A DNA stretch of 64,000 bases from Gammaproteobacteria bacterium (GTDB lineage Bacteria; Pseudomonadota; Gammaproteobacteria; CAIRSR01), in NCBI GenBank assembly GCA_963575655.1, contig CAUYTY010000261.1:1-64000 (forward strand), read 5' to 3'. Shown piece after piece: positions 31-56,033 of this stretch. Each line of letters starts with the position of its first letter. The first letter of the stretch is position 1. A model generated the notes under the pieces. It was not told the origin of the DNA. It saw nothing but the letters and a program-made list of their open reading frames with translations, and made no database searches. Position numbers and translations under genes: made by a program.

Positions 31-55
31 TGCACTTCGAGTTTGAATCCGCAAT
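31..55 (+). mobile_element. Possible IS30-type element end (remnant)
   Basis: A stretch around GTTGCACTTC followed by TTTGAATCCGC closely matches, with about two differences, the sequence at the 3' end of the IS30-type transposase remnant near 4.8 kb (read there on the minus strand). The frame here also reads a VAL-x-x-stop tail like that remnant's VALQG-stop. I infer an old IS30 right end cut by the window edge. It could be a chance match. Nothing else is visible in bases 1-128. Confidence 0.3.
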
Positions 56-128
56 GTCTATTCACGGTTCCATTCATCTGATCATTTCTCAGGATTTTTG
101 CCTTGCATCATCATTGCGCTCCCACTGT

Positions 129-36442: not shown

Positions 36443-37738
36443 ATGGAACATCGCATAACTGCGTTAATGGTTGCCTCAAGGAATAATCACATAGGGGCAG
36501 TTGATTTCTTGCTTTCAGAAGGAGCTAACGTTCACGCCAGAACAACAGATGAAACTACCGCATTGATGATAGCCTCTGAGCATGGCTATCTCGGAATAGT
36601 TCAAACATTACTTGCAAACAAAGCAGACCCCAACGCTAAAAGGAACGACGGCGTCACCGCATTAATGATGGCTTCCCGAAATGGTCACCTGGAAGTTGTC
36701 CACGCCCTCCTTGCCAAAGGCAATAATGTTAACGCAAAAATGTCGGATGGTATAACTGCGCTGATCCTTGCTGCAGAACGTGGTCATTCGAAAATAGTAC
36801 AAGCTCTGCTCTCAGCAGGAGCTCAAATTAATGATAAAACATTTGATTGCCGAACCGTGCAATCGTCTTCTAATAATCGATATGTCGTCTCTGATTTATT
36901 AGACGCAGCGGAGCATGGCGATGTAGGTAGAATTGCATCCCTGCTAAGTTATGGTATTCCAATAGATTCCACGCAAGACCGCGACTTGACCGCATTGATG
37001 ATTGCGTCACACAACGGCCATCTTGATGTAGTTAAAGCATTGATCGAAAGAAATGTCAGCATCAACGCAAGGATGTCCGATGGTGCAACGGCATTAATGG
37101 CCGCCGCCGCATATGGCTATCTTGAAGTGGTAGAGATGTTGCTTCACCACGGCGCTGATGTAAATATTAAAATGATTGACGGAGAAACCGCATTAATAGT
37201 TGCCGCTGAGTATGGTCGTCTCAATACGATACAAGCACTACTTAAGAAAGGCGCTGATGTTAACGCCAAAATGACTGACGGTACGACTGCATTAATGATT
37301 TCTTCCAATAATAATCACCTCAGAGTAGTCCAGTCGCTACTTTTCAGTGGGGTCGACGTCAACGCCAAAATGACCAACGGTACGACCGCATTAATGCTGG
37401 CCGCTGAGAACGGCCACCTCATGGTTGCGCAGGAGTTAATTGCCAACAGCGCAGACATCAATGCAAAAAGAAATGATGGTGTAAATGCGCTAATGTTTGC
37501 CTCAATAAATAATTACCAGAAAATTGTCCATGTGTTGCTTGCTAAGGGTGCTGACGTTAACGCAAAAAATGTAGACGGTATGACTGCGTTGACGTTTGCC
37601 ACAGAGAATGGAAATCTTGAAACAGTGCAAGCATTACTCGCGGGGGGGGGGCCGATACAAATCACTGGACGATGCATGATAAAACCGCCCTACAGATAGC
37701 GGCCGCGAACGGACACGCCAGTATTGAAAATTGTTAAC
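36443..37738 (+). CDS. Ankyrin-repeat protein with late homopolymer frameshift
   Basis: About 12 ankyrin repeats of 33 residues, with the consensus DG-TALM-A---GHL-VV-ALL-KGADVNAKM. A spacer at 150-175 breaks the array after the fourth repeat. There is no signal peptide. A run of ten G near 37642-37651 shifts the frame; as sequenced, translation stops at 37699 with the unrelated tail PIQITGRCMIKPPYR. With 8 (or 11) G the last repeat continues GADTNHWTMHDKTALQIAAA and NGHASIENC to a stop at 37736-37738. Ankyrin arrays bind proteins; the partner is unknown. Repeats are similar at DNA level, so recombination could vary their number. Confidence 0.85.
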
Positions 37739-38074: not shown

Positions 38075-39775
38075 TCAGCCAGTTGGTTCTAGTAATGATT
38101 CAGTTAGCGGATAATAGGCTACTACTTCATTTCCTCGCCCTCGAAACTCCACCTTTCGACACAGATGGCGTACGAGAACGATGCCCCGCCCGAAGGGAAT
38201 ATGATCGTTGTCAATGATATGTCCATAGGCCGCATAGTTAAATCCCGGACCACTATCCATTACCCGCACTCGTAACATCGGGAAGCGCTCTTTTACAATG
38301 GATAGATCGATGGTGATGTAGCCCTCGCTGAGTGCGGCCATGCGTTCGGTGCGTAGATTGATATAACGCTCAAAACCGTCGGTTCCGTTTTTAATTCGAG
38401 AATCGAGGCCGAGCAATCCGTGATCTACGGCATTGTTGTACAACTCCGCGAGGATGACAAAAAAGTTACTGAGTTGATGTTCTTCCAGCCCTGCCTGACG
38501 ACACCAATCCAGTAAGAATGGCAATACATCGATCCCGCGCACTTCCTTATGTCCTAATCGCAGAGTCAGGTGCCACTGCCCCGTGTCGTGCGTAACTGGC
38601 AATGAATGAGGGTGAGGCTCTGCCACCAACGGGCAGGTGTCCTGACATTCCAGTACTACCAAAGAAACATCATCCAACTGAGGCGCTTCACCCAAATGGT
38701 GATGAAGTGCCGCAATGATGCGATTGAGTCGATCGTGGGGCTGCGTTTTAAGCAGAATGTGGGTAAGTCCCGCCATGCCGAAGGGAGTACTTTGGGAATC
38801 TTCGGCCTCCAACAAACCATCGGAGCACATCAGGAGTTGGCCGGAAACCGGCCACTGATAGACCTCCAAGGCGGCGCTAAAGGCGGTATCGACCAAGATC
38901 CCGAGCGGGGGATGTACCGAAGAAAAGGTGCGCAGCACCTCGCCCGCCTGATTTACAAATAGGGCAGCGGGGCATCCACCATTCCAGACGCTAAGGGTAT
39001 TACTGGAAAACTCGACCGAGACGAGTACCGCCGCAACGAAACGCTCGCGCGGCATGAGACGGCGAATCTTGCGATTCATCTCGATGGCGATACGGGAGAT
39101 GGGAAATCCTTTTTCTGTCATGCCATAGAAGACCTCAATGGTCGGCATAACGCTCAGTGCGGCTGCCAATCCATGGCCAGTGGCGTCAGCAAGGGCTACA
39201 TGCAGATCACCCGCTGGGGTACGGGCACAGGCGACGAGGTCACCACTGAAATTGAGCGCCGGAATGATCCGGTAATCCACAAGATCGTCATTCTCCTGCC
39301 CGAAACCCACGATCCGATCCATCACATGGGCGGCCAGGTGGCGCTCTTCCTCGGCTTTGTCCCGATAGTCTCTGAGCCCGACAAGACTTTCGGTAAGTTG
39401 TCCCTGAATAGTGGCAATCCGCTCCATCACCCGGATTTTTTCCCGGAGGATGGTGAAATTTACCGGTTTTGTCAGGTAATCATCTGCACCGCTGGTGATT
39501 CCCCGCACAAAGTCGACTTCTTCGCCCAGGGCGGTTAGCAGGATGATCGGAACCCAGTGAGGTTCCGCCAATTGGCGAATCCGAGCCATGGCTTCGAAAC
39601 CATCCATCACCGGCATCATGACATCCATCAGAATCAAATCCGGCCGCTCGGCTTGATAGCGCTCCACGGCCTGTGCCCCGTCCATGGCGGTGACTACCGA
39701 GTGCCCCCAAGTACGACAATAGGTAGATGCCGTGACTAGGTTAAGGCGATGGTCATCCACAATCAGGATCTTCAA
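38075..39775 (-). CDS. Response regulator with PP2C phosphatase and HATPase domains (HsbR/RsbU-like)
   Basis: 566 residues in three parts. A receiver (LIVDDHRLN; acceptor Asp in LILMDVMMPVMDG near residue 52) is followed by a SpoIIE/PP2C phosphatase domain (about 185-385; DLHVALADATGHGLAAAL, LLMCSDGLLEAED, LDDVSLVVLE) and a C-terminal anti-sigma-type HATPase (about 420-560; VILAELYNNAVDHGL, RVMDSGPGF). This is the layout of Pseudomonas HsbR, which both phosphorylates and dephosphorylates the STAS protein HsbA. A STAS gene lies 183 bp upstream on the same strand, so the pair is a probable partner switch under receiver control. Confidence 0.9.
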   Translation of the reverse strand: MKILIVDDHRLNLVTASTYCRTWGHSVVTAMDGAQAVERYQAERPDLILMDVMMPVMDGFEAMARIRQLAEPHWVPIILLTALGEEVDFVRGITSGADDYLTKPVNFTILREKIRVMERIATIQGQLTESLVGLRDYRDKAEEERHLAAHVMDRIVGFGQENDDLVDYRIIPALNFSGDLVACARTPAGDLHVALADATGHGLAAALSVMPTIEVFYGMTEKGFPISRIAIEMNRKIRRLMPRERFVAAVLVSVEFSSNTLSVWNGGCPAALFVNQAGEVLRTFSSVHPPLGILVDTAFSAALEVYQWPVSGQLLMCSDGLLEAEDSQSTPFGMAGLTHILLKTQPHDRLNRIIAALHHHLGEAPQLDDVSLVVLECQDTCPLVAEPHPHSLPVTHDTGQWHLTLRLGHKEVRGIDVLPFLLDWCRQAGLEEHQLSNFFVILAELYNNAVDHGLLGLDSRIKNGTDGFERYINLRTERMAALSEGYITIDLSIVKERFPMLRVRVMDSGPGFNYAAYGHIIDNDHIPFGRGIVLVRHLCRKVEFRGRGNEVVAYYPLTESLLEPTG

Positions 39776-39958: not shown

Positions 39959-40270
39959 TTAGCGCAACGTGAACAGTTTGTGGAAATTGGCAACCTCAAG
40001 AATCTGACGCACTGCGCCACGACTATTCACCAGACTAAGTTTGATGCCGGTGGGTTCGGCCTTTTCCCGAAGCAACAGCAGCATCCCTAGCGCGGAACTA
40101 TCCAGATAATTCACGTCGGAGAGATCTACATCGATAGACTTTATCGTGCTACGGCTCAGGACATTTTCATAACTGTCCCGGAATTCACGACTGGCATTAA
40201 AATCAAAACGACCCTCAAGCTTGATAGTTGCTTTCTGGTCAGTGTCACTGGTACTGATCTGCATGGGCAT
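39959..40270 (-). CDS. STAS-domain anti-sigma factor antagonist (HsbA-like)
   Basis: 103 residues, a single STAS fold: ATIKLEGRFDFNASREF, SIDVDLSDVNYLDSSALGML with the expected phosphorylatable Ser after Asp-Ser, and GIKLSLVNSRGAVRQILEVA. The start is taken at 40270 (MPMQISTSD), with GAGAG upstream; an earlier Met at 40336 would overlap the cheB end. It is the likely substrate of the PP2C/HATPase protein encoded next. In Pseudomonas the equivalent protein links flagellar and biofilm control. Confidence 0.88.
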   Translation of the reverse strand: MPMQISTSDTDQKATIKLEGRFDFNASREFRDSYENVLSRSTIKSIDVDLSDVNYLDSSALGMLLLLREKAEPTGIKLSLVNSRGAVRQILEVANFHKLFTLR

Positions 40271-40310
40271 AGGAAGTCTCTCTGCGTACTTTAAATTGAA
40301 ATGTGGCGTT

Positions 40311-41414
40311 TTATATTCGAAGCTGTCGACCACCACTGCGGGTTAGATAACTTAATATCTTACCAGAGATCTCTGATAATGGAGCCTGTTCGTCCACTGC
40401 CCCCATCATAAACGCCTCACGGGGCATACCGTAGACAATACAGGTAGCCTCGTCTTGGCCCAGGGTATAGGCACCGCTTTGTTTAAGTTCGAACATCCCA
40501 GCGGCTCCGTCCTTACCCATTCCGGTGAGGATCACCCCGATGGCGTTGCGCCCTACCGTACTCGCTGCGGCACGGAAGAGCACATCTACCGAGGGACGAT
40601 GGCGATTGACCGGAGGATCCTGGTTTACCCCTAGGACATAATCCGCCCCGGAACGCTTGACCACAAGATGGGAATCTCCGGGGGCGATATAGGCATGTCC
40701 TGGCAGCGCCCGCTCGCCGTTGACCGCTTCCTGAACGCGGATACGACACAAGCGGTCGAGGCGTTCGGCAAAAGATCGCGTAAAACCGGGAGGCATGTGT
40801 TGGGTAATCAGGATGGCGGGAGCATCAGGCGGCATCCCTAACAGTACATCCTTGATTGCCTCAGTACCACCCGTCGATGCCCCGATCACAATAATGCGCT
40901 CGGAACTATACCACATCGGCCTGGAATGCCCTGTGGTAACAGGTTCTGAAGTTGCGACGGTAGTTGGCGGTGCAGTAGCAGCCTTCGGAGTCGTGCGCAA
41001 CAGGTGTGGCCGAAAGCGGGCGATCGCAGCCGCACGGATCTTGTCGGTGATCTCAAGGGAGTAGTCTTCCATCCCCCGGCGAATGTCCATGCGTGGTTTG
41101 GATACTACGTCCACGGCTCCCAACTCCAAGGCACGGAAAGTAACTTCTGAGTCACGCTCGGTAAGGGAAGAGACCATCACCACCGGCATGGGCCGCAACC
41201 GCATCAGCCGCTCCAGAAAATTCAACCCATCCATACGCGGCATTTCTACGTCCAGGGTGAGAACATCTGGCTCTAGTGTCTTGATCTTCTCACGCGCCTG
41301 CAAGGGGTCGGCCGCAGTGCCAACCACCGTCATGTCGTGCTCTCGGTTGATGATCTCCGTGAGCACGCTACGGATGAGAGCTGAATCGTCGACCACCAGG
41401 ACCTTAATTGTCAT
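40311..41414 (-). CDS. cheB: Chemotaxis glutamate methylesterase
   Basis: 367 residues. The receiver domain carries acceptor Asp55 ([15 protein letters not shown]), a linker of about 40 residues rich in Ala/Thr/Pro follows, and then the methylesterase domain has the catalytic triad in [11 protein letters not shown] (Ser), TQHMPPGFT (His) and [11 protein letters not shown] (Asp). CheB removes methyl groups from MCPs for adaptation after phosphorylation by CheA. The start at 41414 ([11 protein letters not shown]) begins at the receiver; earlier Mets are not needed. It sits between the HD-GYP and STAS genes. Confidence 0.95.
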
Positions 41415-41614
41415 AGATATGGGCTGACATGAAATACTGCAACGTTTTGATATGGTTTCTAGGCATAACAACCCCCGCATTCTAATTTTTCCCTTTAGAT
41501 TTTGTCTAGGACCATAAATGAGTCATTTTCTTTAGACATCGCCATATAGAAAAATGGGTTTGATTTGCCAATTTGCATTCCCCTGCGATGATATCCTACT
41601 AATGGTTTGTTTTA

Positions 41615-42832
41615 TTAATTCGTCGGATCGGCATAATATTCCGCAATCGTTCTAAACTCATCGACCACCCCCAGAAAGGCGTCCACTAGATCTGGATCGA
41701 AATGTGTTCCGCGTCCGTTTACCACGACATCGATGGCATCTTCAATAGACAGTGCGGGTTTGTAGGGGCGATGGCTAATGATGGCATCAAACACATCGGC
41801 GAGGGCCATCAGACGGGCAGGTAAAGGGATGGCATCCCCCGTGAGGCCCACCGGATAACCGGATCCATCCCAGTGTTCATGATGATAATGGGCAATCTCT
41901 TTGGTCAATTCGAGAAAGGCCAGCGGTGCCTCACGTTCCCCCTCTGCCAATACTGCCTCCGGGCCGAGCCGGGAATAAGCTTGTAGGGCTTGATATTCAC
42001 TCTCGGTACAGACTCGGCGCATCGCGTGGTCAATAACCTCCGCCCCAATTCGGCTGTGTTGTTTCATGACCTCGAATTCTTCCGGGGTCAGGCGGCCCGG
42101 TTTAAGGAGAATTTGATCGGAAATTCCCACCTTACCGATATCGTGCAATGCAGCAGCCCTGGTCATCAGATCGATAAAACGAGGAGTGAGGCGGTTGGCG
42201 TATTTAGGGTGACTCCGCAGTTTGCGAGCAAGAATGGTCACGTAGCCCTGGGTTCGGCGAATATGATTACCGGTCTCAAAATCACGGACTTCGGTCAGAT
42301 TAGCCAGTGCTTGTAGACTCACCTCTTGGATAATCTGATTTTCACGCATACGTCGCACGACCTCCCCCTCCAAAAAAGTGTTCTGGTCGTGTAACCAATC
42401 ACGCGCCCGCTTGAGCTCTAGATGAGTACGCACCCGTGCCAAGACAATGGCAGGGCGAATTGGTTTAGTGATGTAATCAACCGCGCCAAGGAAAAGTCCA
42501 CGTTCTTCGTCTTCGCTAGCATCCAACGCCGTTACGAAGATTACGGGGATATTGCGTGTAACCTCTTGGACACGCAGGCGTTCAAGAACGGCATAACCGT
42601 CCAATCCCGGCATCATAACATCGAGCAAGATTATATCCGGCAACGGTTCGGCGGTAGCAACCACCAGCGCCCGCGAGCCAGAACTAGCTACCTTTACACG
42701 GTAATAAGGTTGCAACAATCCGCCCAGAACAGTGAGATTCTCCGGGGTGTCGTCAACAACAAGGATGGTGGGTTGCTCCACACGAGAAGAACAACGCTGA
42801 ATAGGATCATCCCAGGAATTCGTGGCGATCAT
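41615..42832 (-). CDS. Response regulator with HD-GYP domain
   Basis: 405 residues. The receiver (TILVVDDTPENL; acceptor in DIILLDVMMPGLDG) is followed by a coiled-coil linker and an HD-GYP domain (about 185-395) with TRAAALHDIGKVGI, HSRIGAEVIDHA, HHEHWDGSGYPVGL and RLMALADVFDAIISHRPYK. HD-GYP proteins hydrolyse cyclic di-GMP, and the metal and GYP residues are intact, so activity is expected. The start at 42832 (MIATNSWDD) avoids overlap with the upstream channel gene. As part of the chemotaxis cluster it probably ties CheA signalling to cyclic di-GMP. Confidence 0.92.
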   Translation of the reverse strand: MIATNSWDDPIQRCSSRVEQPTILVVDDTPENLTVLGGLLQPYYRVKVASSGSRALVVATAEPLPDIILLDVMMPGLDGYAVLERLRVQEVTRNIPVIFVTALDASEDEERGLFLGAVDYITKPIRPAIVLARVRTHLELKRARDWLHDQNTFLEGEVVRRMRENQIIQEVSLQALANLTEVRDFETGNHIRRTQGYVTILARKLRSHPKYANRLTPRFIDLMTRAAALHDIGKVGISDQILLKPGRLTPEEFEVMKQHSRIGAEVIDHAMRRVCTESEYQALQAYSRLGPEAVLAEGEREAPLAFLELTKEIAHYHHEHWDGSGYPVGLTGDAIPLPARLMALADVFDAIISHRPYKPALSIEDAIDVVVNGRGTHFDPDLVDAFLGVVDEFRTIAEYYADPTN

Positions 42833-42873: not shown

Positions 42874-43860
42874 TCAGGATACCGCTCCCCATACCAACAG
42901 GGCATTGACGGCAATATAACTTACAACGTAGACCCCACCAGCCCAACGACTAAAACGGTAAAGATTTCCAATATTCCATCGTTCGCGTGTTACCAAAATC
43001 ATCATAGCGCACCCTCCCAACACGATAAAATATAAGAAAGTAATAAAATGTAACCGATCAACCAGCGTTAATGCCTCACTACGGCCAATTACAGTATCTG
43101 CGGCACGTAAATTAATTACTGCGGCAAACAGCGAACCCACCATGGCACTCAAAGCTGCATTTACTAGTTGCGGAGTTTTCTGAATTTGCGGCAGTAGAGG
43201 AAAACAAAAAGCAGTAATTAGAAAAGAAACATAGAGTGCGGTATGCAATTTTATAAACAATATCCGCGAGACGCGCTCCAATTCTATATTGATGCGAATC
43301 TGACTATAACTGCTCTTTGGTGGTGCGCTTGGGTCCCCAAAGTTGCTATTGTAGTCACGCTGGGTATTTTCCACGGTCATTTTGCGGATGGCAAAACCAT
43401 CGATAACAATATCTTTAGCGTATCCGTCGTTTTTTGCATCATCGACATACCGGAAATGATTTATATCATCCTGGGCCTCTTCCATAATAATCGATAGGGT
43501 ATGGCGTTCAAAAGGAAAATTGCTCATATCCCAGGAATGACGAAAGGTACCTTGGATCTTCTGCTGTGACCAGGTCTGATTTTCTTTTTGTTGAGTAGTC
43601 TGAAGACTTATTGTGGCTGACTTAGCATTTACCAACTCCAGTGTCTTGAGTGGTTGGAGACGAGAGTTCTCATAATCGGTCCATACCCAGAAATCCGCCC
43701 CAAAGGTATTCGCCGCGAAATTAAGATCATGTATCGATATTACGTAGGCGCCAAGCGTGGCCTGGTCGGGTGCCCCGTTGGGCGCGGCATCCGCCCAGGC
43801 ATATCCCGTAACAAATACCAAGGCGACAAGTTCAATCAAATTACGGAGTAACCAGTTCAC
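42874..43860 (-). CDS. Pentameric ligand-gated ion channel homologue (Cys-loop/pro-loop superfamily)
   Basis: 328 residues. A signal peptide (LIELVALVFVTGYAWA, residues 9-24) is followed by a beta-rich extracellular domain (about 30-198). The superfamily loop appears as DMSNFPFERHTLSI (111-124) with the central Pro; the flanking cysteines of eukaryotic receptors are absent, as in other bacterial members. Four membrane helices follow: about 201-224, 232-253 (pore-lining, NAALSAMVGSLFAAVINL), 267-290 and 305-327. The intracellular M3-M4 loop is short. A GTG start has AGAGGT six bases upstream. It lies in the chemotaxis cluster between cheD (56 bp) and the HD-GYP gene (41 bp), same strand. Ligand and ion selectivity cannot be read. 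Confidence 0.8.
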   Translation of the reverse strand: MNWLLRNLIELVALVFVTGYAWADAAPNGAPDQATLGAYVISIHDLNFAANTFGADFWVWTDYENSRLQPLKTLELVNAKSATISLQTTQQKENQTWSQQKIQGTFRHSWDMSNFPFERHTLSIIMEEAQDDINHFRYVDDAKNDGYAKDIVIDGFAIRKMTVENTQRDYNSNFGDPSAPPKSSYSQIRINIELERVSRILFIKLHTALYVSFLITAFCFPLLPQIQKTPQLVNAALSAMVGSLFAAVINLRAADTVIGRSEALTLVDRLHFITFLYFIVLGGCAMMILVTRERWNIGNLYRFSRWAGGVYVVSYIAVNALLVWGAVS

Positions 43861-43916: not shown

Positions 43917-44519
43917 CTAGAAAAGCTCAGCCCCGCCTCCGATTGGTACCGTATCGATGGCATGGCTATAGGCTCGTTCACGATTGATCAGGGTATTGTT
44001 GTGCAGCGTACGTAACTCGCGCACTAATACCCGCCCCGTGTCTGGAAAGAAATAGACCTTGCGGGGATAGACCCCCCCCAAATCGGAAGCCAACAGGCGG
44101 ATGCGTTCACGATCTAGATATTGGAGCACAAAGGCAGTATTGCGTGCCCCGACATCGGTAACACCGGCTAGCACCCGCCCCGCGCCAAACACCTTTGCCT
44201 CCAGGCGGGAACGGCTGGCCCCCATTTTGAGCAGGTGGTTGATGAGGAGCTCCATTGCGTAGGCGCCGTAGCGGGCAGACAGACTCAGGACGCTGTCCGG
44301 GTCGCCGCCGGATTCGGGCAACATAAAGTGGTTCATCCCTCCGATACACAATACGGGATCACGGATACAGGCGGCTATACAGGAACCCAGCACCGTAACC
44401 AGTACCATATCGCGCGACGTAACGTAATATTCGCCAGGCAGGATCTTGGCGGCTTGGCAATTGAATTGTCGATCCAGGTAGAGGTTCGGTGCTAGATGCT
44501 GGATACCCTCGTCCGTCAT
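43917..44519 (-). CDS. cheD: Chemoreceptor glutamine deamidase CheD
   Basis: 200 residues with the CheD core: the catalytic Cys in TVLGSCIAACIRDP, the His in GGMNHFMLPE, and EAKVFGAGRVL. CheD deamidates receptor glutamines and can interact with CheC-type phosphatases (none seen here). The ATG at 44519 is 2 bases after the cheR stop, so the two are coupled. The C-terminal tail of about 40 residues is longer than in minimal CheD proteins. Confidence 0.93.
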   Translation of the reverse strand: MTDEGIQHLAPNLYLDRQFNCQAAKILPGEYYVTSRDMVLVTVLGSCIAACIRDPVLCIGGMNHFMLPESGGDPDSVLSLSARYGAYAMELLINHLLKMGASRSRLEAKVFGAGRVLAGVTDVGARNTAFVLQYLDRERIRLLASDLGGVYPRKVYFFPDTGRVLVRELRTLHNNTLINRERAYSHAIDTVPIGGGAELF

Positions 44520-44521
44520 TA

Positions 44522-45427
44522 CTATCTCCGCGTCTTGGCAGCAATTGCCTGAGGAGTCAGGCAATAAACGGTCTGACCTAAAGGCTTCACCAGATCAGAG
44601 ACATGTTGAAGACTCTCGGCATGGCCCATGAATAACAACCCGTCAGGAGCGAGTACTCGCACAAACCCCTCCACGACCTCGCGCTGCGTTGGTTTATCGA
44701 AATAAATCATCACATTGCGACAGAATATGGCATCCAAGGGGGGCTCTACCTCCCAGGTCTCACCGAGTAGATTGAGTTGACGGAAGGTTACGAGATTCTG
44801 GATCTCGGGACGTACTCGGGCATAGCCCTCTTGCTGACCGGTACCACGCAGAAAAAAGCGACGTAGGCTTGTGGCAGGCAGACGATTTACAGCATCCAGC
44901 GGATAGATTCCCGCTTGTGCCCGTTTTAGAACATCGGTATCGATATCGGTGGCAAGTAGTCGTATCGGCGGGCTGAGAGTATTAAAACCTTCCGCTAAGG
45001 CAATGGCCATGGAATAAGGCTCTTCACCCGTAGAAGAAGCGGAACTCCACACCCGCACAACACCGTGCCCTTGAGCTATCCGAGCCTTGGCGTGTTGCAC
45101 CAGAAGTGGAAAGTGGTGCTCCTCGCGGAAGAAATAGGTGAGATTGGTGGTCAAGGCATTGAGAAAAGATTGAACTTCGACCCCTCCTTTCTCTACTTGA
45201 TCGAGATAGGCCCGAAATGAAGATAGATTTAGCGCCCGCAAGCGACGTACCAGACGGCTGTAGACCATATCCCGCTTGTGAGGTCCAAGACTGATACCCG
45301 CCAGACGATAAGCTAATTCTCGGACTCGAGTAAAATCGGCCTCACTCAGAGTGAACTGATGGAGGGGATCACCTGAGGAGCGGCTTGAGGTTTCCGGAGA
45401 CGCCGCCACAGGGGTTTGATTACGCAT
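44522..45427 (-). CDS. cheR: Chemoreceptor methyltransferase CheR
   Basis: 301 residues. The N-terminal helical domain is followed by LTTNLTYFFREEHHFPLL, the SAM site VWSSASSTGEEPYSMAIAL and FCRNVMIYFDKPTQ. It methylates receptor glutamates and is opposed by CheB in the same cluster. The start is 3 bp after the upstream MCP stop. A second CheR, with TPRs, is at 6907. Confidence 0.95.
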   Translation of the reverse strand: MRNQTPVAASPETSSRSSGDPLHQFTLSEADFTRVRELAYRLAGISLGPHKRDMVYSRLVRRLRALNLSSFRAYLDQVEKGGVEVQSFLNALTTNLTYFFREEHHFPLLVQHAKARIAQGHGVVRVWSSASSTGEEPYSMAIALAEGFNTLSPPIRLLATDIDTDVLKRAQAGIYPLDAVNRLPATSLRRFFLRGTGQQEGYARVRPEIQNLVTFRQLNLLGETWEVEPPLDAIFCRNVMIYFDKPTQREVVEGFVRVLAPDGLLFMGHAESLQHVSDLVKPLGQTVYCLTPQAIAAKTRR

Positions 45428-45430
45428 TAA

Positions 45431-48400
45431 TTATTCCTCCGCCATTGATGGATCGAGGTGGAACACATCCACCGCCATACGTAGCTCTTGCGCTTGTTCG
45501 GTGAGCCCTTCTGCGGCGGCGGTGGCCTCTTCGACCAGGGCAGCGTTTTGTTGGGTGGCCTCGTCCATTTGGGACACTGCCTGATTGACTTGCTCGATTC
45601 CCTCACTTTGTTCTTTACTAGCGGCACTGATCTCGGCCATCAGGTCGGTAACCCGTTTGACTGCCTGCACGATCTCGTTCATCGCTTGACCAGCCTGCTC
45701 TACCAATCGGCTCCCGTTGCTGACCTGGATGCTCGATGTGCCGATTAATCCCTTGATCTCTCTGGCCGCTGTGGCGGAACGCTGGGCAAGGTTACGCACC
45801 TCGGTCGCGACTACGGAGAATCCTAACCCCTGTTCTCCAGCACGTGCCGCCTCGACCGCTGCGTTGAGGGCCAAAATGTTGGTCTGGAAGGCGATGCCAT
45901 CAATGACCGTAATGATATCGGCGATTTTAGCCGAGCTTTCGGTAATCGAGCCCATCGTACTCACTACCTCCCCCATTAACTCCCCCCCACGCTCGGCGAC
46001 CTCCCGTGCTCCCTGGGCGAACTGATTGGCCTGCTCCGCGTTGGCCGCATTTTGTTTGACAGTGGAGGTTAGTTCTTCCATGGTCGCGCCCGTCTCCTCT
46101 AGGGACGCGGCTTGTTGCTCGGTGCGCCTAGAGAGGTCGGCGTTGCCTGTAGCAATCTCCTGCGAGGCCGACTCGATGGATTGCGCAGAGGTACGGATAC
46201 TGCCCACTAGAACCCCCAACTGATGAGTCGTTTCGTTGAGATGGTCACGAATGCGGGCAAAGGCGCCATCGTAATTGTTATCGATGCGAGCAGTGAAGTC
46301 GCCTTTGGCCATCGATTCCAGTGCTCGGACGGTACTGGTCACGGCGTCTTCCACCGTATTCAGCAGTCGATTGAGGGCCTCCGCCAGTGTATAGAAAAAG
46401 CCTTCCTTACCAGCAAGTTCGAGACGTTGCCCAAGGTCGCCGGCATCGGCGGCGCGCACCATCCCCTCCACCTCACCTTGGGTCTGGCGAAGGGTGGTAA
46501 CGTCTGTCCATTCAACGACACTGCCAAGGCGCACCCCCTCATGATTGACTACGGGATTTGCCACTAGATCAAAATGACGCCCAGCCAGAGACAGGCTATG
46601 ACGACCGGAATTTGTTTCCAGATCAAGATTTTTTCCTCCCAGGGCCACAATCTCGGCAAGATTCGTCCTCACCAACCGCCGGCTGTCGAAACTTGGCAGA
46701 TGAGTGCGAAGGGTTCCCTCAATTGCGGTAAACAGGTTAGTAACCGCAGGATTAGAATAGAGCACCTGCATCTTGGAGTCAGTAATAATCACTCCGGTAG
46801 AGACATGATCGAGGGCATGACGTATCCGTAGATTTTCATCGGAAGCGCGGCGTGCCTCACTCATATCGAAACCGAGTTTGACCTGCATAATCTTGATGGC
46901 ATCGAGGAGATGACCAATCTCGTCGTGGTGGACAACGGTAATATCATTTTCGTAGCAACCGTCACCAATTCGATCGAAGATCTCCGCAGCCTTTGAGAGC
47001 GGACGAGTAATTGCCCGTGCCAGGACCAAACCAATCAGTATGGCCACCAATAGAAACAATGCGACCGTTCCCAAGGTACCATAGAGACGGGTGGCCAAGG
47101 TATTGAAACGAATATCAAGCAGTTCAACCAAAGCCGGGGTTGCACTATCGAAGATATCAAAGGCGGCGGTAATGGCAGTGGTTGCACTATCAAATACTTC
47201 CTTGGCATTGACGGTTATACCATCCGCTCCAAGTAATCCCTGTTCGACCAAGGCCTGAAAGGTAGCGATTCGCTCATCAAAGACCCGAATACGACCTTCA
47301 ATACTTTCCTTGAGGTGAGAATTGTAACCCACGGCAATGGCAAGCCCTTCTGTCATCGCTTTGGCATTGACTTTGGTATCGGCCAGCAGGGAAATGATCT
47401 GCTCCCGTTGACCAGGAAGAAAAACACGTTTGGCGGCAGCCCCTGACCCCTTCGCACGAGACTGTCCCATGCTTTCGGTCAAAGGGGGGATACGGTTGAC
47501 TACCACATCCATTAGATAATAGATATCTAATTGAGAATTTAGTACCAAACCCGAACCATCTTCTACGTGACGAATTAATTTGAGGAGTGCGCTAATCAGA
47601 TCGGTATGGTTGGAGAAACTATCCGGGGCGGTCATTCCCCATACTTGTTCACGTAGGGATTGCCAACGAGTAGTCAAGGCCGCTAATGGAGCAGCGGTGG
47701 TAAATCCAGCCCCTTTTTCGGCTTCTACTTGGGAAAGATGCTGAAAGTCCGCCTTGATTCGTTCTTCCAGCGCCAACATTCGCGGTTTAAAGGAGGTATC
47801 CCCATTGAGGAAGGCGCTAGACATTCCCCGATGCTGCTGGAGATGCTCAAGCGGAGCGCGCAAGGCAACCACGTAGGCAAGTCCACGTTGTTCTATTACG
47901 TCATCGCGAATTTTCTCGTTGATTTCCATTGCCAACAAGCCAATCGCCAGCGCCAAGGGTACGGCCATGGCAATGCCAATGGTTAGAAATTTCTGCCAGA
48001 CTCGGAGACGCCTAAAGAAATTGAATTTTGTCCCAGATTTGTGCTGACTACGTCTCTCGCGCAGGTCTCGAAAGTAGGATTCAGCTTGGCGCACGTCCTC
48101 TGGTGTGGGACGAGTCCGCGTTGCCATATAGCCCACCATTCGACCGTGTTCGCGTAATGGCGCGATTTGGGCCTTGACCCAGTAGAAATCTCCGTTCTTA
48201 CAACGATTTTTGAGTATTCCGCTCCACGGTCGATCCGCCTTGAGGTGTTGCCAGAGTTCCGTATAAACCACCGCAGGCACGTCAGGGTGACGCAGCAGAT
48301 TGTGCTTGGCCCCCAACATTTCTTGATCCGTAAATCCAGAAAATTCCGAAAAGAGGGGATTGACGTAAGTGATCACCCCATCAAGGTCGGTCTTGGAAAC

Positions 48401-48460
48401 CAACGGAACCCCTTCCGGGAAGGGGCGCTCACTACCGGTAAGATGCGAATAATGATTCAT
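45431..48460 (-). CDS. Methyl-accepting chemotaxis protein, PAS plus periplasmic helical domain, HAMP, PAS, MCP
   Basis: 1009 residues. An Aer-type PAS ([17 protein letters not shown], residues about 22-120) precedes a membrane segment near 165-185, a helical periplasmic region (about 190-455) with [14 protein letters not shown], and a second membrane segment ([16 protein letters not shown]). Then come a HAMP, a second PAS-like region near 560-670, and a signalling domain with the hairpin [20 protein letters not shown]. The cytoplasmic N-terminal PAS could sense redox or oxygen; the periplasmic part resembles NIT-like helical sensors but I cannot assign a ligand. The CheR-binding C-terminal pentapeptide is not present. 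Confidence 0.9.
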
Positions 48461-48808
48461 GGATGTCTATAACTCTCGGCCAGAGATCTCAACAAAGGGG
48501 GGGCAATAAAACTGTTCGTGGGCTAGAAGAATAAATAAAGCAGTGCCATGAAAAATGTTAGACAATAAAACTTAAGCCGAACGATTTTTAGATATTTAAC
48601 TGCAAGCTGCCACTTACGGCTCACTCAATCATTATTCCGGCAGGAATTATCGGAATGACGACCTAATGAGTTAACAACCACCTGGATTATTTGGTCTCTT
48701 TGAGGGATCTTGCGTAGTTTGCAATCAATATTGCTCCTGGATAACTATGTCAACGGCATGATTATTCGGAATAATTAATTTGGTTGTGAGTCACACAAGA
48801 ACCCAAAC
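48461..48808. other. Intergenic region between two MCP genes, left part
   Basis: It contains a decayed type D TIR copy (about 48600-48700, left end CAAGCTGCCACTTA, interior ATTCCGGCAGGAATTATCGG). Its right part (from about 48755), running into the adjoining pseudogene, resembles 49530-49625: a short shared sequence with an AGCCAGCGGAAT hairpin. No intact gene. Confidence 0.55.
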
Positions 48809-49398
48809 CTACCAGCCAGCGGAATTTCTTCCGTTGGCCGATAAGATAGCGTTACCTTCAGGAGTAAGTACGTCTTTAATGTCACCATTTACTCCGTAAA
48901 CTATTACAATTACCCAGTTTCTAGCAGTCCGTTTTACTTCTGCAACAGTATCTAGTTTTGTACGATAACCCAAGTTACCACCTAGCACGCTTTTCTCCCC
49001 TCTTCCGGAGGGAGAGAGACTTTTTCGTTTCTCACCGCATAGGCATACCAATTACATGCAGAAACGTTCTTTATTCGTTATATTGACCACCTATTAGAGC
49101 TAATTTCCCCTCTTTCTTGAGATACGGAGAACTCACTTGAGGTTCAACGAGTTGGAGATTTTCGTTATGCTAGCGTTAATGAACTTTGAGTTAGCATTAC
49201 CGCCCAGCATAAGGAACACTTTTAAGTATAATTAGTATAGCAACTTGGGTTACAATAAGTTTTTGCTTCTTTTTGTGTCCCAACTTCAAGTGTTACCCAC
49301 CTTCCATTTGGTTGCTTAACTACGGAGATTTCTTCCCAACAAATTTGTTTTTCGTACCATATTGTTTCGGTAGAAGTACTAGCCGGCGCACGCCACAC
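48809..49398 (-). pseudogene. Small DUF2188-like gene interrupted by a TIR element
   Basis: On the minus strand the frame from about 49398 reads WEEISVVKQPNGRWVTLEVG then TQKEAKTY up to the element, and resumes after it as RTKLDTVAEVKRTARNWVIV, IVYGVNGDIKDVLTPEGN to a stop at 48809. Taking out 48968-49250 with one copy of the flanking repeat joins the two in frame. The pattern (V-Q-NG-W, then a TK-A helix, then a final G-NG-I strand) resembles DUF2188 proteins, with moderate certainty. It interrupts the minus-strand MCP series and may be a passenger gene. Confidence 0.6.
48968..49250. repeat. Long TIR element interrupting a DUF2188-like gene
   Basis: 283 bp. The left end is ACCCAAGTTACCACCTA, followed by a type C interior to about 49045, then about 190 bp of unrelated AT-rich sequence, and the right end TAGCAACTTGGGT. 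The flanks are TACGATA (48961-48967) and TACAATA (49251-49257), a 7-bp duplication with one change. It shows that a large, non-palindromic interior can be carried between family ends. Confidence 0.8.
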
Positions 49399-49590
49399 TC
49401 TCTAACCTATTGGTATTCTGTATCTCAGCATTTTTAACAAAAGTTGCTACCTATAGTTCAATCCAATCGTCACCCCGACAAGGAATACCGGAATCCAGAT
49501 GCAGTTCGTTCCCCATCGCAGCCTACATACGCCAACGGCGTGGTTACCCAGAATAATTAATTGGCAGTAAGCCACACGAGATCCCAAAAT
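49399..49590. other. Intergenic region upstream of the DUF2188-like remnant
   Basis: Contains a left TIR end (AAAAGTTGCTACCTA near 49440) with a CACCCCGACAAGGAAT interior, probably a decayed type D element, and part of the sequence that resembles 48755-48850. No gene. Confidence 0.45.
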
Positions 49591-49624
49591 TATCAGCCAG
49601 CGGAATGGATTCCGCTGGCTGATA
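49591..49624 (-). terminator. Perfect 16-bp hairpin after an MCP gene
   Basis: Arms TATCAGCCAGCGGAAT and ATTCCGCTGGCTGATA with a 2-base loop. On the minus strand it is followed by ATTTTGGG. It sits 20 bp after the stop of the MCP at 49644, so it is a likely terminator, splitting the chemotaxis cluster into at least two transcripts. Confidence 0.65.
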
Positions 49625-49643
49625 GAGTTAGGCGGCGATTCGA

Positions 49644-52556
49644 CTAAAACTCCTTCCAGGTATCTTCATCCTTTCCGGTGGTCGGCAATCCCGGTTTTCC
49701 ACTTGATTTTACTGTGACGGAGGAGGCCGAACGCGTCATAGGCGTTGTGTGTTTGGTTGCTGCTGTCGGTCGAGTAGAGGTTAGGGCACGTCCTGCGGTC
49801 GGTTTGGCCTTGCTCACCTCCCCTTTTGGCGGTTGCAACACTGAATGCTGCCTCACGGGCCTCGCTACTGCTGACGCAGTCGCCATTCTCTTGGTGGGAG
49901 CGTCTTCCAGCTTGAACTGGCTTACCGCCGTGAGTAGTTGCTCCGCCTGCTCCTGGAGGGATTCAGCGGCGGCGGCGGCCTCCTCGACTAGGGCCGCGTT
50001 TTGCTGGGTGGTCTCATCCATCTGGGAGACTGCCTGGTTAACCTGCTCGATACCGCGACTCTGTTCCTCACTGGCGGCACTAATCTCGGCCATTAGGTCA
50101 GTAACACGCTTGACCGCTTGTACGATGTCTCCCATGGTCTGACCCGCCTGCCCCACCAGTCGGCTGCCGTTATTGACTTGGGTCGTTGACGCATCAATAA
50201 GTGATTTGATCTCCTTGGCCGCCGTAGCCGAACGACCGGCAAGACTGCGTACCTCCGCCGCAACCACCGAAAATCCCCGTCCCTGCTCTCCGGCGCGTGC
50301 AGCCTCAACTGCCGCATTGAGGGCCAAAATATTGGTTTGGAAGGCAATTCCATCAATAACTGAAATGATATCGGCGATCTTGGCGGAACTCTCTGTGATC
50401 GAACCCATGGTTTTCACCACCTGTCCCACCAGTTCGCCACCGCGTTCTGCTACGTCTCGTGCCCCTTGGGCAAATTGATTGGCCTGACCAGCATTGGCTG
50501 CATTCTGTTTGACGGTTGAGGTCAGTTCTTCCATGGTTGCCCCGGTCTCCTCTAGGGACGCGGCTTGCTGCTCGGTACGCTTGGAGAGATCGGTATTACC
50601 GACGGCGATCTCTCGGGAGGCTGAACCAATGGCCTCAGCCGCAGAACGAATATCCCCCACCAATGAACTCAACTGATGTGTGGTCACGTTGGTGTTTTCT
50701 CGAATCCGAGCGAAGGCTCCACCGTAGGTATTGTTGATGTGCGTGGTGAAATCGCCCTGCGCCATGCCCTCCAGTGCGTGCACGGTATCGGATACCGCCC
50801 CTTCCACCGTTACTAACAGTTGATTAAGGGCCTCCCCCAGACCTCGCAAGAATCCTTCTTTTCCGGAAAGGTTGATGCGTTGCGTTAGGTCGCCGGACTG
50901 GGCGGCACGAACCATTGCCTCGATCTCGTCCTGGACGCGCTTGATATCGGTGCAATCAGACCACTCTACCACGCTGCCCAGGCGTTCCCCCTGAGCGTCG
51001 CTCACCGGATTCGCCACCAGATCGAAGCTACGCCCGCCAATGGCAACATGGGCACGATAGGTAGCACGCAGCTCCCCCAGCAAGCGACGCTGATGGGCTG
51101 GGTTGCGGTGGAACTCATCAAAATTGCGCCCTAATAAATCTCGAGCCGAAAAATTGGGGAGATCCTTGCGGATATCGGCCTCAGCGTGGGCCATCATCTC
51201 CACCACTGCACGGTTGAGATAAATAAGCTTGCCATCCGGGTCGGCAATCATAACGTTGGTTGAGACGTGATCCAGCGCCGTTTGTACCCGCAATGCCGCT
51301 TCGGCGCGCCGCTTTGCCTCAGTCATATCGACGGAGAGTTTTATCTGCATCGCCTTGAGGGCGAGCATCAGGCGTCCCAGCTCATCGCGGCGTTGCACCT
51401 CGATCCGCTGATCGAAGCGTCCCTCGGCAATGGCGTTGAAATGGCGTATCGCCTCAGCCAACGGGCGACGCACCGAGCGCAACCCAAACCACACCATTGC
51501 TAGCAATAACCCCACAACCCCCAACGCCTCCATCCCGTGGGACAAGATCTCATCCCAGACGGCTGCGTCTACGTCATCCACGTAGATACCGGAACCGATG
51601 ACCCATTCCCAGGGCTCAAAACCCTTGACATAAGAAAGTTTAGGTACTGGCTGAGTTATTCCTGGTTTGGGCCACTGGTACGCCACGAACCCCGCTTTTA
51701 CGGTACGTACTACGTGCACGAACTCAACGAATAGGTGTTTACCTAAAGGATCGGTGATATCCGTTATATCCTTGCCCTCCAATTCCGTTTGGTATGGATG
51801 CATTACCATGCGTGGTTGGAGGTCGTTGACCCAGAAGTAGCCTTGGGCACCGTAGCGCAGTCCACGCAATGCCGTGAGTGCGGCCGCCTTGGCTACGTCA
51901 TCCGTCATTCGTCCGGCCAATCGCTCATGGTAGAAATAATCCACCACGCCATAAGCGGTTTCGACCGCATGTTGAGCAGTCTCGCGGTGCGCTTGCATGA
52001 AGACGTCGCGTTCATCATTAAGCCATCGGCTAAAGGTAATCCCAGCCGCAAGTAGGAACAGGAGCAACGCCACCACGACCCGCCCTTGTAGGCTCAGGTG
52101 ATGTAGTGCGGTCTTAGCCCGTGTGAGGAACCCTGGACCCTTGGCGCGCCCAGCGTTCATCTCTCGGTAGGTGTGTTCAACCTCCTCGATTTGAGCACGA
52201 CTCGGCTTTTTGCGTACCGACATATAACCCACCGTCTGCCCGTTTTCGTGGATGGGCGTAACGTTGGCCTCTACCCAATAAAAATCGCCACTTTTGGTGC
52301 GATTTTTAACTAATCCGGTCCAGGGTTCGCCGCGTTTGACTGTCGCCCAAAGGTCGGCAAAAGCGGCCGCCGGCATATCGGGGTGGCGCACGAGATTGTG
52401 GGGAGACCCCAATAATTCTTTCTCGCTAAAACCGCTGATGGCCATAAATTCGGCGTTAGCGTAGGTAATGACTCCATTGAGGTCCGTTTTGGATACGAGT
52501 TGGATGTTCTCGCGAAATTCTCGTTCCGTCGTGGTTACTGGCATATTCATACGCAT
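49644..52556 (-). CDS. Methyl-accepting chemotaxis protein, PAS plus Cache, HAMP, PAS, MCP
   Basis: 970 residues. An Aer-type PAS ([17 protein letters not shown]), a membrane segment near 165-180 ([15 protein letters not shown]), a single-Cache (sCache_2-like) periplasmic domain (about 185-330; [19 protein letters not shown] and [14 protein letters not shown]), a second membrane segment ([14 protein letters not shown]), HAMP, PAS and a signalling domain with [21 protein letters not shown] basic, Thr/Ser-rich C-terminal tail of about 90 residues ends [11 protein letters not shown], close to the CheR-tether type (xWxxF). sCache_2 domains often bind small carboxylates. The start at 52556 (MRMNMPV) has GAGGAG eight bases upstream. 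Confidence 0.92.
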
Positions 52557-52572
52557 GGCATGAACTCCTCGA

Positions 52573-53088
52573 TCACTGTTGGGCAAGAGTGCGGCGGGCC
52601 AGTGTATTTTCATCCACTAAGGCCATTTCTCGACTTGTCATAAGTCGTTCGATATCTACCAAAATGAGCATACGCCCCTCAGTCGTACCTAATCCCATCA
52701 GGTATTGAGTATCCAAAGCATTACTAAACTCCGGCGCCGGTTTAATCTGATCTAGGGTAAGGCTAACAACATCCGAGACCCCATCGACAACCACCCCGAC
52801 AATCCGACCAGAGAGATTGAGCACAATAACTACCGTGCGTTCATGATATTCGGCATTACCTAATTGAAACTTTACACGCAGGTCCACAATAGGAACAATG
52901 GCGCCACGCAGATTGACGACACCTTTGATAAAAGGCGGCGTATTGGCAATTGGTGTTACTGGGTCATAACCACGGATCTCCTGCACTTTCAGGATTTCTA
53001 CGGCATACTCCTCATTTCCCAGTGTAAAAGTGAGAAATTCGCGCGCGCTGTGTGCAATGTCAGCGGAGCGAATCGCTTGGGCAGTCAT
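52573..53088 (-). CDS. cheW: Chemotaxis coupling protein CheW
   Basis: 171 residues, a standard Che[42 protein letters not shown] and [14 protein letters not shown]. It connects receptors to CheA. The start at 53088 ([10 protein letters not shown]) has GAGGT upstream. It lies between cheA and an MCP, 16 bp from the latter. Separate from the cheW at 2899. Confidence 0.95.
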
Positions 53089-53492
53089 GGTTCGGACCTC
53101 GTTATTAGAATCGGGAATAACCTTCTTTGATTCAGGATACACCAAGAAACTGCTTATATTTTTAGAAGAAGATCAGTTTTCTGTCTACCGGCTCGATACT
53201 CATTCATGTTTGGTTGGACCTGAGAAAGCGCACTGAGGTACGAAACGCACCAGTCGTGAATGATGCGTTGACTCATTTAAATACTATGCTCTGCACGACT
53301 TTATGCTAGTGGTCCCAAACATACCCTGGATTTCTTTGCAAACCTGGTTGTGTTAGAACACAGTACACGACCCAATTGAGCATGGAACTGTATCCAACTT
53401 AAGTTTCCAGCTAACCAACGATGAAACCGCCACTCCGGCAATCCCTGCCGGAATGACGGTTGAATTGGAGCATTAGGTAGCACTTAAGTTAA
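53089..53492. other. cheA-cheW intergenic region with a type D TIR element
   Basis: A 404-bp gap. The right half (about 53397-53491) is a decayed TIR element with interior GGCAATCCCTGCCGGAATGA; its right end GTAGCACTTAAGTTA reaches to within 2 bp of the cheA stop codon. The rest (53089-53396) should hold the cheW promoter but shows no gene. Confidence 0.55.
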
Positions 53493-55844
53493 TTATCCAG
53501 CGATTCCTGTACGGGTGGCGCGACGCACTAGATAGCCCACATCTAAAATCAGCGCGACTCGACCATCACCCATGATAGTTGCACCAGAAATACCGTCAAC
53601 ACGACGGAAATTAGATTCCAGACTTTTGATGACGACCTGATGCTGACCCACGAGTTGATCTACGAATAGCGCAATGCGCCGCCCTTCGGCTTCTAACAGG
53701 ACCAAGATGCCTTCCTCTGGAGTACGCACGGTAGGAGTAATCCCAAGCACTTCGTACAGGGGCAGAACAGGCAAATATTCGCCACGTACCTGTACTACCT
53801 GACTGCGCCCCGCGACGGTACGAATATCGGCAACCTGCGGGCGCATTGATTCCATGATATAACCCAGTGAGATGATAAAAATCTCCGCGCCCACGGCGAC
53901 CGAAAGACCATCCAGAATCGCCAAGGTTAGGGGAAGGCGCACAGTAAAGGTGCTCCCTATTCCTTGCATCGAGTTGATATCAACGGTTCCGCCCATATCC
54001 TGGATATTGCGGCGGACGACATCCATACCCACGCCCCGCCCCGAGACGTCTGTAACCTGGTCTGCGGTGGAAAACCCTGGGGCGAAGATGATCTGCCAAA
54101 CCTCTTGGTCAGACATTCCGTCGTTCACGGATAAACCACGCTCCCGGGCCTTTGCCAGAATACGTGCACGATTAAGCCCTGCACCATCGTCGTGAACCTC
54201 AATGACCACATTCCCCCCCTGATGGGAGGCGGAAAGTGTGATATGCCCCAAGCGATCCTTTCCCCGTGCGGCTCGCACATCCGGGGCCTCAATACCGTGG
54301 TCCAGACTATTGCGGATCAAGTGAGTAAGGGGGTCGGTAAGTTTCTCGGTGAGCCCCTTATCTAGCTCTGTACCTTCACCCAAGGTGGTAAGTTCCACCT
54401 GTTTCCCAAGCTTTCCCGCCAGGTCTCGTACCAAGCGCGGAAAACGGCTAAACACCACGCTGATCGGCATCATGCGAATCGACATGACGCTCTCTTGTAG
54501 GTTACGGGTATTGCGGTCGAGTTGATCGAGTCCCGCTTGCAGGCGAACGGTCCAAGTTGGGTCTAGCTGAGAGGCAACCTGCGCCAACATGGATTGGGCG
54601 ATGACCAGTTCCCCTACCAAATTCATGATCTGGTCAACCTTCTCTACACTCACCCGAATCGAACTGCTCTCGGCCTTATGAGTCGGTGATTTGGCCGCAG
54701 AGATTGGCGTTGGAGTGGCCGCCGGTTTGGTGGCAACCATCGGTTCTAGTGTGGTGGAGGGAGCAGATGCAACCACCAGCGCCTCTGCCCCAGAATCTGT
54801 GGATGTAGGGGCACCAGGCGCGTTGGGAAAGAAGCCGTAGGGCACGACGGTAGAGGAAGGAGTAGTTGCCACCGTCGATTTTGGTGTAGCGGGGGGGACG
54901 GCTACCGACGTAACAGGGGCTCCAGGTGCGTCGGAAAAGAAACCGTAGGATGTATCAACGGCGACTAATGGCACGGAGATGGTCGACGGCACGCCGGGAG
55001 CGTCCTCGAACAAACCGTAACCAGGATCCGCCAACACGGAGGGGCTCCCTGGAGCGCCATCGAAGAAACCAAAATCAGCCTCCTCGGCGGACATCGTGGC
55101 CTCAATGTCGAACAATGGCGCAAAGAAACCATAACTGGTCTCGGTTTCTACCTCCTCAGGGAGTGGTTCGAGGTAGATCTGCGCGGGGTCGGCGTAAAAA
55201 GCCAGGTCCTCTTGGATATCCTCGCCACTGTCGAGGGTAAAGAGGTGAATTTCCCAACTCCCCTCAACACTTTCATCAACCGGACGTTGCACCACATTTA
55301 CGGTGCCATGCCGCTCCCACTCTTCCAACAAGGGGGTTAGCCCTCGTTTCGCGGCCTCTGCCGGGAGGACAAAACGCAGCCGCCAACGATGTAACTGAGC
55401 AGGCTCGTTCCCGGACTCGTTGTGTAGGGAAGAAGACAGGTGCATGGACTTGGCCGGGGTCGTCAGGAACCTCTCCAACCGTTGAATCACCGCATCGGCG
55501 GCCGCAGGATCCACGATCTGTCCGGCACGGTGTCCCGCGAGCTGCCCCTGGATGGCGTCCACAGAGGCGAGGAAGGTGTCCACCATCTCACGGGTGGGCT
55601 GCATCTCACCCTTGCGCAAAAGGTCCAACACCGATTCCAGGACATGAGTCAACCCAGCCATGTCAGTAAAACCAAAGGTCCCACTGCCTCCCTTAATGGA
55701 GTGGGCCGCTCGAAAGATGGCATTGAGGACATCAGGCTCAGGGGCTTCTAGATCCAGCCCGACGAGTAGATGCTCCATCTCCGCCAAGTGTTCAGTGGTC
55801 TCATCAAAAAGGGCGGCGTGAAAGATGCTGAGGTCGATACTCAT
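53493..55844 (-). CDS. cheA: Chemotaxis histidine kinase CheA with GFFxDAPGxP repeats
   Basis: 783 residues. The Hpt domain has the phosphorylated His48 in RAAHSIKGGSGTFGF. A second small domain lies near 155-225 (RWRLRFVLPAEAAKRGL). Residues 238-347 carry five versions of a short motif, YGFFAPLF and four of GFF-x-x-APG-x-P, in a Pro/Ala-rich linker. Then follow the dimerisation domain (VDQIMNLVGELVIAQSML), the ATP-binding domain (NSLDHGIEAP, GRGVGMDVVRRNI) and a CheW-like end. CheA autophosphorylates and passes phosphate to CheY and CheB. The ATG at 55844 has GGAG seven bases upstream. Confidence 0.95.
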   Translation of the reverse strand: MSIDLSIFHAALFDETTEHLAEMEHLLVGLDLEAPEPDVLNAIFRAAHSIKGGSGTFGFTDMAGLTHVLESVLDLLRKGEMQPTREMVDTFLASVDAIQGQLAGHRAGQIVDPAAADAVIQRLERFLTTPAKSMHLSSSLHNESGNEPAQLHRWRLRFVLPAEAAKRGLTPLLEEWERHGTVNVVQRPVDESVEGSWEIHLFTLDSGEDIQEDLAFYADPAQIYLEPLPEEVETETSYGFFAPLFDIEATMSAEEADFGFFDGAPGSPSVLADPGYGLFEDAPGVPSTISVPLVAVDTSYGFFSDAPGAPVTSVAVPPATPKSTVATTPSSTVVPYGFFPNAPGAPTSTDSGAEALVVASAPSTTLEPMVATKPAATPTPISAAKSPTHKAESSSIRVSVEKVDQIMNLVGELVIAQSMLAQVASQLDPTWTVRLQAGLDQLDRNTRNLQESVMSIRMMPISVVFSRFPRLVRDLAGKLGKQVELTTLGEGTELDKGLTEKLTDPLTHLIRNSLDHGIEAPDVRAARGKDRLGHITLSASHQGGNVVIEVHDDGAGLNRARILAKARERGLSVNDGMSDQEVWQIIFAPGFSTADQVTDVSGRGVGMDVVRRNIQDMGGTVDINSMQGIGSTFTVRLPLTLAILDGLSVAVGAEIFIISLGYIMESMRPQVADIRTVAGRSQVVQVRGEYLPVLPLYEVLGITPTVRTPEEGILVLLEAEGRRIALFVDQLVGQHQVVIKSLESNFRRVDGISGATIMGDGRVALILDVGYLVRRATRTGIAG

Positions 55845-56033
55845 GCGTTCGCTCCGGGGCGAGAAAATATGCGGCAAAGCCGCACCGCCGTTCAGCCGAT
55901 CATCAGCATATCGGAATGCTGTTTGACTTTATTAAAAAGTCACAGGGCAGTAGCCATTCAAAAACACACCAAGATTTTTCTTATCATACAAAAATCACTT
56001 AATGTTCTTGAATTCTTGATTCTCGACAGTTCT

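Follow-up and report, generated by a model that had tools for sequence, protein, structure and literature searches.

The window, a 64,000-nucleotide stretch of gammaproteobacterial DNA, carries a chemotaxis (che) cluster on its minus strand. The gene order is cheA-cheW-MCP-MCP-cheR-cheD-channel-REC/HD-GYP-cheB, followed by genes for a STAS protein and a REC-SpoIIE protein (Table 1). The channel is a homologue of the pentameric ligand-gated ion channels (pLGICs). CheR, CheD, HD-GYP, CheB, CheW, CheA, and the two MCPs were identified with Pfam and NCBIfam, and the REC-HD-GYP protein possesses the c-di-GMP phosphodiesterase motifs HD and HHE..GYP. In PDB searches, the PAS domains of both MCPs best match the aerotaxis receptor structure 8dik (E=2.5e-36 and 2.6e-39). 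Because both receptors have Aer-type PAS domains, the cluster probably serves energy taxis. Between the two MCP genes lies a stretch of about 1.2 kb (48473-49643) with a G+C content of 0.42 that, if overlaps with its neighbours are disregarded, contains no ORF of 100 aa. Beside the cluster, a plus-strand gene (36443-37699) encodes a protein made up almost entirely of ankyrin repeats. The genome as a whole is very che-rich, with 39 CheW-domain and 50 MCP signalling-domain matches.

Table 1. Features of the che cluster, of the channel gene within it, and of pLGIC gene pairs at other loci. Positions are those of the window unless given in amino acids (aa) or as loci.
Feature	Position	Strand	Remarks
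cheA	53493..55877	-	
cheW	52573..53145	-	
Chemoreceptor	49644..52613	-	Aer-type PAS, sCache_2, HAMP, PAS, MCP signalling domain
Chemoreceptor	45431..48460	-	Aer-type N-terminal PAS, HAMP, PAS, MCP signalling domain
cheR	44522..45427	-	PF01739, 5e-57
cheD	43917..44564	-	likely ATG at 44519; PF03975, 9e-32
pLGIC homologue gene	42874..43860	-	ORF of 328 aa, GTG start
Channel signal peptide	aa 1-23		cleavage between AWA and DAA
Channel periplasmic ligand-binding domain	aa about 34-195		
Channel M1-M4	aa about 197-328		hydropathy; helices near 197-227, 230-259, 262-293, 305-328
Pro-loop core (M)SNFPFE	43499..43524, approximate	-	P115, start residue uncounted
Pre-M1 basic residue R195 and neighbour	43270..43275, approximate	-	alignment; start residue uncounted
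Pore helix M2, QLVNAALSAMVGSLFAAVINLRA	43099..43167, approximate	-	alignment to GLIC
REC-HD-GYP response regulator	41615..42832	-	likely ATG at 42832; PF00072, PF13487, PF01966
cheB	40311..41480	-	
STAS-domain protein	39959..40336	-	
REC-SpoIIE phosphatase-HATPase protein	38075..39775	-	
Cache-pLGIC and MCP-like gene pairs	L134-L136, L138, L142-L150	same strand	other families of the phylum

The channel gene has a Shine-Dalgarno-like AGAGG site 6 nt ahead of its GTG start. Its place between cheD and the HD-GYP regulator, on the same strand and with short gaps, is as given in the preliminary description: measured by the likely ATGs, 56 nt separate it from cheD and 41 nt from the REC-HD-GYP gene. 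Immediately upstream of the channel gene is a sequence that weakly resembles a promoter, and co-transcription is therefore uncertain.

By hydropathy, the encoded protein is composed of a signal peptide, an extracellular domain, and then four transmembrane helices. The signal peptide, the Pro-loop FPFE, and the four membrane helices on which the first assignment was based are all present. The Pro-loop has the pattern aromatic-P-aromatic-acid, the acid being Glu where Asp is commoner, and the pre-M1 R195 is presumably its salt-bridge partner. A Pfam search found no domain in the protein, hence neither an MCP signalling domain nor HAMP.

GLIC is the proton-gated pLGIC of Gloeobacter, and membership of its superfamily had been proposed for the window protein. 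A chance resemblance to pLGICs, shown by an unrelated membrane protein with four helices and a beta-rich domain, would fit several of the direct results. Searches of Pfam, NCBIfam, and the PDB sequences with the single sequence matched nothing useful, a two-sequence profile of the window and congener channels matched no pLGIC structure, and AlphaFold on the single sequence gave only a low-confidence model (pLDDT 43), in which strands are followed by four C-terminal helices. Genome searches across 369 sampled genomes of the class found relatives of the channel in 14, a count that includes the genome of the window. Some of the relatives have architectures already known from prokaryotic pLGICs, with a PBP-I or Cache domain fused in front, and weak Neur_chan_LBD or Neur_chan_memb matches. 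A profile of the 14-member family, window protein included, matched GLIC over the whole chain (E about 1e-35).

Circularity was controlled for with profiles built without the window and congener channels (66 sequences) or without any member of their eight-row clade (60 sequences). The former finds the window channel at 1.3e-52, and the latter still finds it at E=3.1e-40 over nearly its full length, far beyond chance. Shuffled copies of the channel gave no report at E<=10 against these profiles, and the best other ORF of the window reached E=0.8-1.3. In hhalign, the channel aligned at 97% probability (E=7e-11) to a group whose best structure matches are sTeLIC, DeCLIC, and ELIC. Among 69 aligned sequences, all keep the Pro-loop proline and 68 the pre-M1 arginine; the window protein has both. 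As far as sequence homology goes, chance resemblance is thus already refuted: the leave-clade-out match (E=3e-40), the hhalign result, and the two universal residues all speak against it. It is hardly credible as an explanation, and the window protein is almost certainly a pLGIC homologue.

Within the tree, the window and congener channels belong to a well-supported clade of eight (100/96), and a channel of the sister genus, from genome G002, is one of the other six. The loop-A WxP segment of the extracellular domain (about 20-24 aa) is typical of GLIC and of animal members and is deleted in the window clade. Of the 68 prokaryotic pLGICs sampled in the phylum, about 60 are likewise without it, so the canonical ligand site is incomplete in most of them. 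Judged from these alignments, the segment is not defining for prokaryotic pLGICs. M2, with prime numbering taken from the alignment to GLIC, reads 2'S, 6'G, 9'F, 13'I, and 16'R. It carries no charge from -2' to 0', that is, no acid at -2' or -1' and no base at 0'; the other prokaryotic rows shown, the congener excepted, have a basic residue at 0'. These residues suggest that the window channel does not belong to the cation channels of the GLIC type. Its 16' arginine and the lack of an acidic ring point weakly to anion selectivity or to low selectivity, which is a guess from the sequence.

The cheD/HD-GYP junction was compared in one congener (G001) and two genomes of the sister genus (G002 and G003). 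The G001 channel is 61% identical to the window channel over its full length. G001 keeps the order cheR-cheD-channel-HD-GYP, and there the stop codon of cheD and the ATG start of the channel gene overlap (TGATG). The upstream neighbour of its cheR is a divergent transglycosylase gene rather than the MCPs of the window, so the block has been kept despite a changed upstream side. Both sister-genus genomes have a homologous cheA-cheW-MCP-cheR-cheD-HD-GYP cluster, but the channel is absent at the junction, where cheD adjoins HD-GYP; the sister-genus pLGIC is located by an ABC-transporter gene. Conservation of the neighbourhood, on which the preliminary description had let its reading depend, therefore holds in the congener and fails in the sister genus. 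The simplest reading is that the channel was inserted at the junction in the window's genus, the alternative being loss in the sister genus. A role as a core adaptation component was considered and rejected because the sister-genus cluster does without the channel, which is an add-on and not part of the adaptation machinery.

The composition and divergence of the channel gene differ from those of its neighbours. Its G+C content is 0.448, below most neighbours and below the 0.53-0.57 of cheR, cheD, HD-GYP, and cheB; in G001 it is 0.38 against 0.46-0.58 for the neighbours. Between the window and the congener, the channel has diverged faster (61% identity) than cheD, cheR, and HD-GYP (81-85%). 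Both features are as would be expected of an acquired accessory gene. The channel dN is 0.28 and synonymous sites are saturated, and the gene is therefore under purifying selection.

Among 68 pLGIC loci from the class and phylum samples, the only one inside a che operon besides that of the window is the congener's. MCP, CheW, and CheR genes near the pLGICs of L120, L133, and L161 form no consistent shared operon and were not counted. The window's genome encodes a second pLGIC (G000:C256, locus L160, 10075-12658, plus strand; Neur_chan_LBD 9e-20). The likely start of this pLGIC gene overlaps a dCache_3 sensor gene. Upstream on the same contig and strand are MCP, cheW, STAS, and cheA genes, with an opposite-strand isochorismatase gene in between. 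Since the genome is so che-rich, this proximity could be due to chance. Chance placement is less likely for the window channel because its exact junction is conserved.

A different association is observed in a Cache-pLGIC clade from five families, where all 13 of 13 members have an MCP-like gene directly next to the pLGIC gene and on its strand, with an overlap or a gap of at most 94 nt. The MCP-like partner is roughly 520-590 aa long and has a degenerate signalling tip (NLLATSASAEASR..RGF); in L150 its reading frame is broken. This association is conserved and not due to chance, and it is a link between pLGICs and chemoreceptors that is independent of the window operon.

Two further groups of loci are of note in their own right. 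Proteins of about 1040-1400 aa combine PBP-I, a pLGIC-type ligand-binding domain, and MscS (L082 1731-4850, L083 1613-4759, L084 1801-4914, L086 1993-5421, L091 1233-5453), and those of L086 and L091 also have a C-terminal cyclic-nucleotide-binding domain. By their domain matches (Pfam was run on L082, L086, and L091), a pLGIC binding domain is here joined to a different channel. At L008/L037 and L105 (G243), a pLGIC gene with a mid-ORF in-frame stop adjoins a Cache-pLGIC and is a possible pseudogene.

The reading preferred here, held tentatively and at a little under even chances, is that the channel gives the energy-taxis operon a second, ionotropic input through ion flux. The protein would be a homopentameric inner-membrane pLGIC with a periplasmic ligand-binding domain, inserted into an existing energy-taxis che operon in the ancestor of the genus, between cheD and REC-HD-GYP, and kept since. 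A periplasmic ligand or ion condition would open the pore, and the ion flux would shift membrane energisation or the periplasmic ion balance. The Aer-type chemoreceptors encoded in the cluster may then read this shift. The channel would be co-expressed with the adaptation enzymes CheR and CheD and with the c-di-GMP phosphodiesterase. A channel acting on membrane energisation would fit an energy-taxis system. The effect on membrane potential and taxis first proposed for this gene is thus plausible and is strengthened by the Aer-type receptors in the cluster.

The channel may instead be a laterally acquired, functional pLGIC with another use, for example in sensing pH, osmotic conditions, or nutrient ions; it would be expressed when the che operon is on and have no input to taxis. 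This is a real possibility, though a doubtful one. It would account for the lower G+C in both species, the faster divergence, the absence from the sister-genus junction, and the possible own promoter, and it agrees with the relatives found in unrelated neighbourhoods and with most surveyed pLGICs lying outside che operons. What it explains less well is that the exact junction is kept in two species whose channels are only 61% identical, that cheD and the channel overlap in the congener while cheR there stands in a different upstream setting, and that the channel is under purifying selection.

Coupling to taxis could also proceed without ion flux. In that case the protein would be a non-conducting, conformational receptor for a periplasmic ligand and would pass its signal on through contact with the MCPs or CheD, which we consider distinctly unlikely. 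The small residues at M2 2' and 6' are as in conducting members, and the window protein is without a cytoplasmic signalling domain. The unusual pore, with Phe at 9', Ile at 13', and uncharged residues at -2' to 0', would nevertheless suit such a receptor. The pairing of Cache-pLGICs with MCP-like genes (13/13) suggests protein-protein coupling, and the MscS-linked relatives show the binding domain recombined with a membrane module of another kind.

GLIC and ELIC serve as standard models of nerve receptors, although what bacterial pLGICs do in the physiology of the cell has, to our knowledge, not been established. The window operon provides a concrete and testable setting, in which a pLGIC gene lies in a cheR-cheD operon beside Aer-type receptors, is present in the congener, and is missing in the sister genus. 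The Cache-pLGIC and MCP-like pair is a second, more widespread setting for a pLGIC role. Taken together, the channel of the che operon and the Cache-pLGIC with a degenerate MCP as its putative cytoplasmic partner could make pLGICs a recurrent ionotropic input to chemosensory systems, a generalization that we regard as rather unlikely.

Compared with the known structures, the window channel shares with GLIC the full-length profile match, the Pro-loop, the pre-M1 Arg, the four transmembrane helices, and the lack of an accessory domain. It differs from GLIC in that its clade is without the loop-A WxP and its M2 has no -2' acid and has Arg instead of Ile at 16'. ELIC, sTeLIC, and DeCLIC are of the same superfamily, and the second channel of the window genome belongs to their group. 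The window channel, unlike this group, has no Cache or other N-terminal domain, its loop-A segment is deleted, and its pore residues differ.

Prokaryotic pLGICs (ART-LGICs) were proposed to be chemotactic receptors by Tasneem et al. (PMC549065, 2005) on the basis of fused or operonic PBP, Cache, and MCP-N domains. A later pLGIC inventory (PMC4795631) mentions neither chemotaxis nor operons, and no report of a pLGIC inside a che operon was found in the open-access literature. The gene of the window channel, in contrast to the ART-LGICs of the 2005 proposal, lies inside a cheR-cheD-HD-GYP-cheB operon. Through this operon, the long-predicted link between pLGICs and bacterial movement is now open to experiment. 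With Aer/energy-taxis chemosensory clusters, the window shares the arrangement cheA-cheW-MCP-MCP-cheR-cheD-cheB and receptors with Aer-type PAS domains, and it is set apart from them by the channel gene between cheD and the REC-HD-GYP gene.
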